64,000 bases of DNA, taken from the NCBI GenBank assembly GCA_001599975.1, contig BCIO01000002.1:1674001-1738000 (forward strand), read 5' to 3'. Below, in pieces: positions 22,430 through 59,811 of this stretch. The position numbers and the translations under genes are program-made. This DNA is from Cystobasidiopsis lactophilus. Its lineage: Eukaryota > Basidiomycota > Agaricostilbomycetes > Agaricostilbales > Chionosphaeraceae. Under the pieces are notes generated by a model. The model worked only from the letters and a program-made list of their open reading frames with translations. It had not been told where the DNA came from and did no database searches. How positions within the stretch are numbered: the first letter of the stretch is position 1; each line of letters begins with the position of its first letter.

Positions 22430-23344
22430 ATGCCGCCCAAAGGAAAGAAGGGCAAGGCGGCCGCTGCCGCTGCTGCAGAGCAACCTCCAGAAGAGGACGA
22501 CTCTAACCTGGTGGGCATTCAAGACTTGGAGATGCCCAAGTCAACAGGTAAAGCCCGACCATTTTGCCTCGGGGTTGGAAGTAGCTCAAAGCCCGGCCGC
22601 CCAGTTATCAAGGTCGCCAAGTCAGAGGTAGCCGCCGGTCCTTTCCAAGCGGACAAGCAGAAGCTGAGCCCTTCGCGTTCGAGCGCAGCTTCCAGAGACC
22701 GCAAAGCTTGCCAAAGAGATTGCGCCCGCGTTGGTCCGGGCGACGACCGTCTTCATCAGCTACCTGGCAGCCATGTATGCCCTTAGTCTGGTCTTATATC
22801 TCGTGGTGCACATTGATCGAGCAACCCGCACAGATCCCACGATGTCGCGAACGAGCGGTCTCACAAGACCATCACCGCCCAACACGTCCTCGAGGCTACG
22901 CGCTTGTTGGAGTGGGAGGACGGCGAGCAAGTGCAAAAGCTCCTGAGAGATGAACTCAAAGGTGCGCCTTGCTCTTGGGCTCAGGCATTGTGCTTTTCGG
23001 AAGCTCAAGAGAGCAACTGGTCCACCACAGCGTTCAAGACCGCCCAACTCGCCAAGAAGGCCGCCAATTCCAAAGCAAAGGCCGCAGCTAAAGCATCCGG
23101 AGGCAAATTGCCCACTGAAGCGATGGACGAGGATGAAGATGCCAACGGCACCACGCAGATTGTCAACGACGACGACGAAGCGGAGGACAGCTACGGCGAA
23201 CTCGATGAGGACACTGTAGGGGACATCGAGGAGGACGTTGTGGAAAGCGACCTCGAGGAAGAAGAGCCGGAAGAGCCCGATGTGGAAGACACCGGGCTCC
23301 TCGACGACGACGCTCACACCAAGGGTGGCACGGACGACCTCTAG
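22430..23344 (+). CDS. DPB4: DNA polymerase epsilon subunit Dpb4/POLE3 (histone fold)
   Basis: Histone-fold subunit of DNA polymerase epsilon, also part of CHRAC-type remodellers. From MPPKGKKGKAAAAAA the five exons join to give the fold: IQDLEMPKST-VIKVAKSE, LPETAKLAKEIAPALVRATT, VFISYLAA-ISHDVANERSH, KTITAQHVLEATRLLEWED. These match POLE3 helices alpha1 to alpha3. The tail is Ala/Lys-rich, then strongly acidic (EDVVESDLEEEEPEEPDVED), as in Dpb4. An intron at about 22970-23031 removes a non-family stretch before AFKTAQLAKKAANSK. The stop at 23344 is 43 bp from the antisense stop of IRC5. Confidence 0.92.
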
Positions 23345-38851: not shown

Positions 38852-40534
38852 ATGCTCGTGAGTTCATTTAGTCGCGCCCTTGCCTCTGCTGGTGTCCTCT
38901 GGACAACGCGTCGTGCTGTTCGGCGCCGACGAGGTCTCCAGCCATTTCTGTCGACCTCCTTCAGGCCCGCGAGACGCGTTTTTGGGCGAGTTGCAACCAG
39001 GAAGGGCCAGCGCTGACCTCGATGTGTTTGCTTTTGCCACAGGAAGCCAAGATTGAGAAAGCCGAGCTGCTCAAGAAGATTCTTGAAGGTGCGTCGAGGC
39101 CCTGAAGCTCTTGTCGGACCGTGCTCAAGCCGTAGAGCGACCGCAGCCGTCAAGGAGCTCGTCAACGATGCCAACTGGGACTGCAGCGACGAGGGCATGG
39201 TCAGTTCCCTCAAATCCGCTGCCTTCCAACGCCGATGGGCTCTAAACGTAGTCAAACAGAAACTGCAAGCTATGGACAACTCGCACATCGCGCTGGTGTC
39301 CCTCGAGCTGCAGCGGGGCATCTTCAAGGAGTTCCGCTGCGACCGCAACATGTCGCTCGGCATGAACTTGGGCTCGCTCACCAAGATCCTCAAGTGCGCC
39401 GGCAACAACGACACCGTCAAGCTCACGGCCTCGGACGACTCGGACGTGCTAGGCCTCGACTTCCAGAACCGGAGTGGGTTCTCTCTCGCCTTTGCTTTTG
39501 GCCTCTAAGCTGAATGCGGTCTCCAACCCACAGTCCACGACCGCATGGGCCAATACGAGATGAAGCTGATGGACATCGACCAAGGTGCGTTTTGGCGCGA
39601 CGGATCTCTTTTAAGGCCTTTATGGATCTGATGGTGCGCGCCAAATTTAACCAGAGCACCTGGGCATCCCGGACACGAGCTACGACGCCAGCGTGACCAT
39701 GCCTTCGGGCGAGTTCCTCCGCATCGTGCGCGACATCAAGGAGCTCGGCGAGTCGGTCAAGATCGAGGTCACCAAGGAGGGCATCAAGTTCAGCGCCGAG
39801 GGCGAGATTGGCACGGCGGCCGTCACGCTGAGGCCGACCGCTTCGACGACGCGCGCGCGGGCCAAGTCGGAGGAGGAGGACGAAGAAGAAGAGGACGAGG
39901 ACGAGGAGATGGAAACGGTCAAGGCGGAGGACGACGAGGAGGCGGACGCGTCGCCCAAGAAGGCCAAAAAGTCGGCCAAGGCCAACGGCACGTCGAAGAA
40001 GCGCATTGCCGGCTCGGACGACGAGGAGGAGGACGACGTGAAGCCCGACAAGGAGGTGATCGACGTGGAGGACAATGACGACGACGAGGACGACGATGGA
40101 TCGGTCCACGCGCTCGACGACGACGACGATGACGCCTCGGTGGCTTCGTCCAACAAGAAGCGCAAGGGCGCGAACGGCAAGGTCATCAAGAAGCCTGCTG
40201 CCAAGTCGTCCAAGGGCAAGGCCAAAGTTACAAAGGCCAAGGGCAAGAAGAAGGGCGGGGAGGATGGCGAGGACGAGAACCGCGAGGTTTGTTTCTGCCC
40301 CCTTCCTCTTTGCCCTCTTGATCTCACACATGGCACGCACAGATCATCATCACCTTGTCGCAGTCCGTGTCCTTGACCTTCTCGATCAAGTACCTCCAAA
40401 ACTTTGCCAAGTCGACGCCGCTGAGCGACAAGGTGACGCTCAACCTGTCGGCCGAGGTGCCCCTGCTGGTGCAGTACGACTTTGAAGGCGGCTCGGTCAA
40501 GTTCTACTTGGCACCCAAGATCAGCGACGAGTAG
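38852..40534 (+). CDS. POL30: PCNA sliding clamp with a large charged insertion
   Basis: Ring-forming DNA sliding clamp that tethers replicative polymerases and repair factors. Exons: 38852-38857 (only ATG CTC), 39043-39088, 39147-39199, 39260-39473, 39532-39584, 39655-40286 and 40343-40534. The spliced protein starts MLEAKIEKAELLKKILEAVK, continues MKLQAMDNSHIALVSLEL, CDRNMSLGMNLGSLTKILKC and GIPDTSYDASVTMPSGEFLR, and ends FEGGSVKFYLAPKISDE, all PCNA. Between IGTAAVTLRP and IIITLSQSVSLTFSIKYLQN sit about 150 residues where human PCNA has about 13; they are acidic (SEEEDEEEEDEDEE), then Lys/Ala-rich, and have no stop. The first intron is unusually long (185 bp) after only two codons. Confidence 0.95.
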
Positions 40535-40961
40535 TGGTGAACGCTTTCCCTTAACCCAAACAAACGCGTGCCGTCGTCAGTCTCTTCCTCTCTTTTCTTT
40601 CGTTCGTGCGAGCTCAATACTTGTTCATTCAACAGGTCGCATATACTTTTTGGCTCTGCTCCCACCTCGTCTTGTCGGACAGCGAATCAGGGGAATGGGA
40701 CTGGTGGTGTCGCGTTCGTCTCTAAAGAAGCCATCGTTCTGTCTCTCCCTTTTTTGGTCCCATCTTTCTAGTAGTTGCTCTCTTGCTGTTTGCTCGCTTT
40801 GCCATATCCCACAAAACAGCGCTCTCTCCTCTGCCCTTAGTCAAGCCAACTGAGTTGGACACCCTCAGCCACTGTTGCCCTTCCTGACTTCAACAAGATC
40901 CCAAGCCCCGGCCGTCGAAGGAGTAGTGCATCTTTGAGAATAGTCAGAGGAGCAACAAGGG
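40535..40961. other. Intergenic, CSN4 promoter
   Basis: 427 bp between PCNA and CSN4 on the same strand. Pyrimidine-rich plus strand (CTCTCCCTTTTTTGG at 40742-40756). Nothing coding or RNA-like seen. Confidence 0.5.
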
Positions 40962-42599
40962 ATGGAGGCCGCGCTGTCTGCCGTTCAAAGCAACCCAGTC
41001 TCGAGCAAGACTGAAGCCTGTTCGTTTGCCCTTTCCCTCTTCTGCTCTGTGTGTGAATGACCAACAAAAGAGAAACACACACAGTCGTCGCTCTGCTGCA
41101 CAAGACGCTCAACAATGGCTCCTCCTCCGCCCCTGCTTCCTCCCACCGCTTGGTCGAGGACCTGACCGCCTTGGTCCGCTCGGCCGCGCAAGAGTCGACC
41201 GGCCTGCTCGTCTCCCGCCAGGTGCTCTCCGAGGCCGTCAAGGAGATCACCACCCACGCCGCGCTCCAGGACGCAGAGGCCAAGAAGGCGCTCATCCAAA
41301 ACATCCTCCCCCTGCTCCAGGCCAGAGCTGTCACTTTTGAAGAGCAGGTTCGCGCTTTCCCCCATCTTTCCGCTTGCCGTCGAAAGAGAATTGCTGATGA
41401 ACGTAGGGTCGAAACAGATCACCACGTTGCGCTTGGCTTTGGCTGACATCCTCGAGGCCGAGGAGGATTGGGAGGGTTGCGCCAAGGTCTTGATGGGCAT
41501 CCCCCTCGACACCGGCCACAGGTGAGCATCTTGTCTTTGTCAGTGAAAGGTCAAGGGTTTGAAAGTGAGGAATTAGGTCCATCACGGACGACTTCAAGCT
41601 GACCGTCTATGTGCGCATCGTGCGCTTGCTCTTGGAGGAGGACGACGCTGTGACCGCCGAGAGCTACTTCAACCGGGCCACTTTGCTCATCCACACCGCC
41701 ACCGACAAGACCATGCAGCGTGAATTTCTCCCTCGCACACTCTCAATGCCTCTGGCTTTTGGAAACTAACCAGCTTGTTTTAACACAAAGTGCACTACAA
41801 GCTCTCTCAAGCCCGCATCTTGGACAGCCAACGCAGGTTCAACGAAGCCGGCTCCAAATACCACGAGATCTCCTACGTGACCGAGCTCGAAGAGGAGGAG
41901 CGCCTCCACGCCCTCTCCGCCGCCGTCACCTGCGCCATCCTCGGCCCCGCCGGCCCAACCCGCTCCCGCCTGCTCGCCACTTTGTACCGAGACGACCGGT
42001 CCCAGCACCTCGAGCAGCACCCCATCCTCGCCGCCACCTTCTTGGGCCACATCATCCGCCCCAACCTCATCTCCAGCTTCGAAGCCACCTTGAAACCCCA
42101 CCAGCTCGCCCGCCTGCCGCCCATCCCCAAGCCGTTGGCCTCCTCCAGGGCTGCCCCCGAGGAGCCTGGACCAGGAGCCAAGCGCGGGCCCGAAACAGTC
42201 TTGGACCGAGCCATCATGGAGCACAACCTGCTGGCCGCGTCCAAGATCTACGGCAACATCACCTTCTCCGGCTTGGGCTTGCTCTTGAGCTTGACCCCCT
42301 CGGCGGCCGAAGGCATGGCGCGCACCATGATCCAGCAAAACCGCCTCAAGGCCGCCATCGACCAGGTCGAGAAGCTCATCACCTTTGACCCGGCCGCGCG
42401 GGAGCTCGAGGGCGCGGTCAGCAACGTGGCCAAAGCGGCGGCCTTGGGCTCGGGCGGGGCGGAGGAGGACGACAAGGACAAGGTGCATGCCGACGAGACC
42501 GTCAGGTGGGACGCCAACATCCGCCGCAACACCCAGGCCGTCGAGGAGCTCGCCGCCCGCGCCAAGTTCTTGCTCACCGCCACCGTTGGAGGCGTGTGA
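40962..42599 (+). CDS. CSN4: COP9 signalosome subunit 4
   Basis: PCI-domain subunit of the COP9 signalosome, which removes Nedd8 from cullins and so controls cullin-RING ubiquitin ligases. Five exons: 40962-41022, 41088-41348, an exon starting near 41407, 41579-41716 and 41791-42599, giving about 450 residues. Key blocks: TLRLALADILEAEEDWEGCA, DDFKLTVYVRIVRLLLEEDD, ESYFNRATLLIH and LHYKLSQARILDSQRRFNEA, a TPR-like helical repeat, then the PCI domain (IYGNITFSGLGLLLSLTPSA, MIQQNRLKAAIDQVEKLITF). The C-terminal helix (RWDANIRRNTQAVEELAARA) is typical for CSN4. Codon use in the last exon is very GC-rich. Confidence 0.95.
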
Positions 42600-59716: not shown

Positions 59717-59725
59717 AAAAAAAAA
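59717..59725 (-). terminator. Pol III terminator of tRNA-Gln
   Basis: Nine A bases on the plus strand, hence T9 on the tRNA strand, directly after the tRNA 3' end. This is the expected RNA polymerase III stop signal. Confidence 0.9.
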
Positions 59726-59811
59726 GGTCGAACTGGGATTCGAACCCAGGCTATCAGAAATTTTGGCGTTAGAGTCAGAATCTGAGGTCCTAACCGCTAG
59801 ACTATTCAACC
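59726..59811 (-). tRNA. tRNA-Gln (CUG), with a 15-nt intron
   Basis: On the minus strand the cloverleaf is complete: acceptor GGTTGAA with TTCGACC (one T-G pair), D stem GTCT/GGAC with loop AGCGGTTA, anticodon stem TCAGA/TCTGA, and T arm CTGGG-TTCGAAT-CCCAG. The loop between the anticodon-stem strands is 22 nt; removing 15 nt after position 37 (about 59760-59774) leaves TTCTGAT with anticodon CTG, so glutamine. The intron sits at the canonical 37/38 site cut by the tRNA splicing endonuclease. The B box GGTTCGAAT is perfect. Confidence 0.95.

Follow-up and report, generated by a model that had tools for sequence, protein, structure and literature searches.

The PCNA gene

The window analysed here is a stretch of 64,000 nucleotides from the basidiomycete Cystobasidiopsis lactophilus (contig BCIO01000002.1, positions 1,674,001 to 1,738,000), and all coordinates below are positions within it. 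Its forward strand carries a gene for PCNA, a protein that ranks with the best conserved in eukaryotes for both its size and its fold. The features of the locus are as follows:

38852-40534, + strand: PCNA gene, seven exons, 397 residues, from splice model and translation
38852-38857, 39043-39088, 39147-39199, 39260-39473, 39534-39584, 39655-40286 and 40343-40534, + strand: PCNA exons
39774-39776, + strand: K164, the conserved modification lysine, in VTKEGIKF, by alignment with yeast
39786-39788, + strand: K168, the conserved Rad5/Rad18 docking lysine of yeast, by alignment with yeast
39843-40277, + strand: insert, residues 187-331, in the back loop between what we take to be strands D2 and E2, by alignment with yeast and PDB PCNAs
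40287-40342, + strand: intron 6, beginning three codons past the end of the insert

All six introns (56-185 bases) follow the pattern GTNNGT...CAG. The next gene downstream (41421-41516, + strand) shows a weak PSMD12/CSN4 N-terminal match (E 0.0055, below the cut-off) and is possibly COP9 subunit 4. At the gathering threshold, Rfam matches the window once, at a tRNA gene (59725-59811, - strand). A search for 5.8S rRNA found no match among the 39 of 672 candidates that were scored.

The identity of the 397-residue product (calculated mass 43.7 kDa) as a sliding clamp is clear from Pfam, with matches to PCNA_N (E 2.5e-50; 169.9 bits, cut-off 20.3) and PCNA_C (E 5.1e-43; 146.8 bits, cut-off 23). 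The Rad1 clamp family also passes its cut-off, at a far lower score (41.3 bits against 24), while the cut-off for the Rad9 family is not reached. A PDB search with the same protein returned 98 distinct sequences at E 0.001, and the yeast clamp aligns to the query in two stretches, residues 1-186 and 332-397. When the window PCNA is aligned with three standard PDB clamps, that of yeast (1plq/3k4x) and two presumed fungal ones (8gj5 and 6qh1), the core is shared at 44, 54 and 56% identity and the insertion is the sole gap, each of the three being 140 residues shorter at this point. The residues of the PIP-box pocket in the interdomain loop, L126 and I128, are retained, and the C-terminal APK (A391 P392 K393) is invariant across the four sequences.

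Changes at positions 113 and 178 of yeast PCNA presumably affect translesion synthesis. Residue 113 of the window PCNA is Gln where yeast has Glu, and residue 178 (39816-39818) is Ala where yeast, the two other PDB clamps and the PCNA gene of a record filed as viral (L024, described below) have Gly. In the alignment discussed in PMC9225081, G178 is conserved among the fungi compared and is said to matter for ring stability and for interaction with Rad5. Given these two residues, the subunit interface of the window PCNA may be adapted.

Searches of the 22.1 Mb assembly, which is possibly incomplete, with both PCNA domains found no second PCNA gene; they were run exon by exon with the best candidates scored. 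A paralogous PCNA of normal length, which the first-pass annotation had named as grounds for giving up its proposal, did not appear in these searches. The cell probably has no other replicative PCNA, and it therefore presumably replicates its DNA with a clamp that bears the insert.

Position of the insert on the clamp

The insert stands in place of about five yeast residues (187-191), so that the net gain is 140 residues in a protein of 397. The first-pass annotation had put about 140 extra residues in the domain-2 loop at 39837-40286, which proves right to within a few residues. Yeast residues 183-195 are described as the P-loop or back loop, the main site at which fungal PCNAs vary within their less conserved C-terminal domain (PMC9225081), and this naming together with our alignments upholds the proposed location on the back face.

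Along the sequence, the insert falls between K168 and the position of yeast K196, which is Ile336 in the window PCNA. In yeast, the docking surface for Rad5 and Rad18 lies on the back face, is marked by K168 and K196 and adjoins K164 (PMC13050448). As placed by alignment, the arm has its root next to K164 and to the surface used by Rad18 and Rad5.

The insert as coding sequence

A gene with an unusual internal segment raises the question of whether part of that segment (39837-40286) is removed from the mRNA, leaving a protein of normal length. The end of the insert lies three codons before a genuine intron, which would suit a retained intron or an error in the gene model. Against this, the insert is in frame and free of stops, and it keeps the codon bias of coding DNA. 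GC content at the three codon positions is 0.65/0.35/0.88 in the insert and 0.54/0.33/0.92 in the core, with the same codon preference for Asp, Glu and Lys, compared with an overall GC of 0.50-0.66 in the introns and 0.56 in the sampled genome (180 kb). A scan for donor and acceptor patterns found no consensus splice pair within the insert: the donor patterns GTNNGT and GTA[A/T]G occur in exon 6 only at 39752, in the core, and at the real donor at 40287, and from 39837 up to the true acceptor, whose last base is 40342, there is neither CAG nor TAG.

Two of these observations carry less weight than they might seem to. Synonymous recoding of the insert leads one to expect 1.3 acceptors and 0.23 donors, and of 5000 recodings 27% have no acceptor and 78% no donor; the missing splice sites are thus unsurprising, and their absence shows only that partial splicing would need non-consensus sites. 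Likewise, the open frame across the insert is weak proof of coding because two antisense frames are open there too (39423-40343 and 39680-40576, - strand, 306 and 298 codons), probably as a by-product of high GC3. Even so, the earlier statements that no intron explains the segment and that coding composition is kept across it both hold. Splicing within the insert is very improbable, and from its sequence the insert is almost certainly part of the PCNA protein.

Composition and charge pattern

The 145 residues of the insert include 27 Asp, 26 Lys, 23 Glu, 17 Ala and 12 Ser. Charged residues make up 55% of it, and its net charge is -20 against -11 for the remaining clamp. On the charge-hydropathy plot, the insert as a whole and all five of its sub-blocks lie on the disordered side of the line, while the core plots as folded. 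This prediction bears out the earlier description of a charged and disordered segment. The charges are strongly segregated, none of 5000 shuffles being as blocky, and run in the order acidic, basic, acidic, basic (to about residue 323), with a short acidic end:

39855-39947, + strand: acidic block 1, residues 191-221, with VKAEDDEE, SUMO-acceptor-like and then acidic (12% of shuffles)
39948-40013, + strand: basic Lys/Ala block 1, residues 222-243, with SPKK, a CDK-type site (7% of shuffles)
40014-40133, + strand: acidic block 2, residues 244-283, with VIDVED and then acidic, SUMO-interacting-motif-like
40134-40277, + strand: basic block 2, residues 284-331, rich in Lys, Ala and Gly; it includes a KKRK run and finishes in a short acidic stretch

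Basic block 2 has what we take to be a resemblance to histone H1 tails, and its KKRK run is presumably nuclear-localisation-like.

To judge how unusual this composition is within the genome, stop-to-stop segments of at least 100 residues were collected in all six frames from the window and from 18 stretches of 10 kb. The insert ranks first among the 983 segments of this 244 kb with 58 Asp, Glu and Lys per 100 residues, in a ranking that covers about 1% of the genome and was made after the insert had been seen. Second comes an acidic segment in a different open frame of the window (43 per 100; 23036-23335, + strand). The next two (42 and 41) lie in a single stretch, L020, that was chosen deliberately for its match to the CAF-1 large subunit; the segment of 41 overlaps that match by position, and the segment of 42, which we infer to belong to CAF-1, lies about 600 bases upstream. 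Since the insert leads the ranking, stretches so dense in these residues are uncommon in this sample of about 1%.

Origin of the insert and its motifs

The acidic blocks hold imperfect GAG/GAC trinucleotide-type repeats (62-88% match) with mixed codons, which suggests old slippage that has since diversified. It is also conceivable that the insert was born from a shifted donor site, given that its end falls three codons before intron 6. An internal tandem duplication of an acid-base unit was considered and rejected: the two halves score 76, a value matched by 460 of 2000 block-preserving shuffles, and for the basic blocks alone 1898 of 2000 do equally well. No second match to the insert was found in the assembly at E 0.001 (seven candidates scored), and the insert alone has no known domain in Pfam at E 1; the whole protein gives a BUD22 match (E 0.11) below the cut-off. 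When a 64-residue piece across the insert's start was searched against the PDB, five weak matches came up (E 0.076-0.81), all to acidic stretches of unrelated proteins, and they were set aside.

A SUMO-interacting motif consists of a hydrophobic core of the form hh.h with an acidic run beside it. The segment VIDVEDNDDDEDDD may be of this kind, and its arrangement arises in 1.4% of shuffles, uncorrected for the seven patterns that were tried against 20000 shuffles of the insert. This VIDVED site (2.1% as the plain pattern) is the sole uncommon one of the seven. The others are met more often in shuffled sequence: CDK-type sites in 7%, the SUMO acceptor with an acidic tail in 12%, simple acceptors in 19-32% and CK2 sites in 61%. 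The putative modification motifs are therefore mostly at the level expected from composition, and we treat them as leads.

Comparison with other clamps and charged proteins

The window PCNA has a precedent. In an alignment of S. cerevisiae with 14 other fungi, PCNA of Cryptococcus neoformans (UniProt Q5K7Y2) has an insertion of more than 80 residues in the back loop, at yeast residues 183-195, that is absent in the other fungi compared (PMC9225081). The net gain of 140 residues in the window PCNA at the same loop likewise exceeds 80, and the Cryptococcus insert is the shorter by the published wording, the two being compared by description. The two proteins also differ at residue 168, which is Thr in C. 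neoformans and Lys here. The section of PMC9225081 on the back loop gives no function for the Cryptococcus insert. Among titles and the beginnings of abstracts, we found no further report on it and nothing on the subject for Rhodotorula PCNA or for loop insertions in basidiomycete PCNA; a search for the PCNA 'D2E2 loop' found no literature, and the passages of PMC7255605 considered here do not mention a PCNA insertion. The uniqueness that the first-pass annotation had implied is reduced accordingly: the window insert is a second, longer case of back-loop insertion and not a singular oddity.

Four further PDB clamps (5h0t, 5hac, 6j0j and 7wp3), which we take to be Leishmania donovani PCNA, are also longer than most at 289-302 residues, about 30-45 more than yeast PCNA overall with tags possibly counted. 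Their alignments reach into the insert, as far as query residue 217 or 218, or else 203.

Searches for relatives outside this assembly yielded one PCNA. Of 207 pattern matches to the full protein among viral contigs, none was confirmed as a relative; by alignment search, one of 172 candidates proved to be a PCNA gene, which is interrupted and has a back loop of normal size. It lies at L024:1501-2375 (IMGVR_UViG_3300010980_000172, filed as viral) in at least two stretches, the best segment having 54% identity to the window PCNA, and the break in the gene points to an intron, which would make the DNA eukaryotic, or else to a chimeric record. None of 50 candidates from prokaryotic genomes was a relative, and none was found in phage records with query residues 1-184.

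Among proteins that are not clamps, several offer partial likenesses. Human p15 (PCLAF) places a positively charged N-terminal tail at the back face of PCNA, where it binds DNA (PMC7225939). It is a separate, disordered and basic partner held through a PIP box, unlike the arm considered here, which is built in and of mixed charge. Ki-67 and NPM1 share with the arm alternating charge blocks in disordered regions, and charge blockiness, itself tuned by phosphorylation, is reported to promote condensation of Ki-67 (PMC9106583). Neither protein is a clamp, and condensation by a PCNA arm is a candidate likeness only. Histone chaperones with an acidic domain resemble the insert by composition alone.

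Pathway context

The assembly seems to contain the machinery with which an arm on the back face might make contact. The dimerisation domain of the CAF-1 large subunit is there, so this chaperone is not being replaced, and the idea that the arm compensates for loss of CAF-1 was dropped. One match to the PINIT SUMO-ligase domain exceeds its cut-off, as do 13 matches to Rad60-SLD, which represent SUMO- and ubiquitin-like folds without sorting one from the other. None of 11 matches to the Rad18 model exceeds the cut-off; the best, of 55 bits and reading through one stop, is followed 300 bases downstream by a second stretch and may tentatively be regarded as a Rad18 gene split by introns. Among the pathway parts examined, no missing one explains the arm.

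Proposed role and alternatives

The reading we put first, though we hold it with slightly less than even confidence, is that the arm serves as a disordered electrostatic tether for factors of chromatin or damage tolerance. The back face of PCNA trails behind the polymerase. Each of the three subunits would carry a 140-residue disordered block-polyampholyte arm on this face, and the arms would trail toward the newly made duplex, beside K164 and the docking lysine K168. The front face would still accept the clamp loader and PIP-box partners; with L126, I128 and the C-terminal APK retained, its function is presumably kept and replication unblocked by the arms. The acidic blocks could hold basic partners such as histones or the basic tails of repair factors, and the Lys/Ala blocks could touch DNA. 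The arms would in this way concentrate chromatin or damage-tolerance factors locally and tune access to K164, and phosphorylation by CDK or CK2, or SUMO, might alter their charge. This reading draws on the single clean insertion in an otherwise gapless core, on its presence in the sole PCNA gene found, on the density and segregation of its charge, on its place on the modified back face, on the parallels with p15 and Ki-67 and on the SUMO-pathway matches in the assembly; the motif counts, mostly at chance, and the presence of CAF-1 speak against it. Histone-like or chaperone action, docking and modification, as suggested in the first-pass annotation, are candidate roles that the sequence makes plausible.

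A close rival, possible and somewhat less probable in our estimate, is that codon-repeat slippage lengthened a solvent-facing loop that tolerates low-complexity sequence, with at most slight electrostatic effects. The trinucleotide-type repeats in the acidic blocks fit such a history, as do the variability of the back loop among fungi and the long Cryptococcus insert, by which the loop is seen to tolerate insertion (PMC9225081), and the insert alone has neither a family match nor significant internal duplication. Blocky charge, moreover, could arise from slippage alone without selection, which counts against the tether. However, GAG/GAC repeats do not account for the basic blocks, all 982 other segments of the density sample are less rich in Asp, Glu and Lys, and the codon use of the insert is about as biased as that of the core. 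PCNA is also essential and under tight constraint, a matter of general knowledge that sits poorly with neutral expansion.

More specific roles are harder to favour. The arm could be a control element for SUMO and ubiquitin in which VIDVED, VKAEDDEE and VKPD bind SUMO at K164 of the same or a neighbouring subunit or carry extra SUMO, so that recruitment of an anti-recombinase or Rad18 is altered. The rarity of VIDVED with its downstream acidic patch, the rooting of the arm on the K164 face and the SUMO-pathway domain matches in the assembly all agree with this, yet VIDVED is weak once corrected for the seven patterns, the acceptor-like sites, which 12-32% of shuffles also contain, do not stand out clearly from chance, and with Ile in place of yeast K196 the surface for docking may not be the same. 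We regard this proposal as unlikely. Scarcely more probable, and more speculative in scope, is a clamp with chromatin machinery of its own, whose arms would take hold of histones and newly made DNA and would also recognise SUMO at K164, coupling nucleosome assembly in cis with the choice of damage-tolerance pathway in this fungal lineage.

Implications

As far as its sequence tells, the arm-bearing PCNA is real, well placed and unusual. With Cryptococcus, long inserts in the back loop are now known in at least two fungi. A native clamp enlarged by half, its additional mass lying beside K164, would be a natural experiment on the capacity of the back face and on how clamps may hold chromatin factors without PIP boxes.
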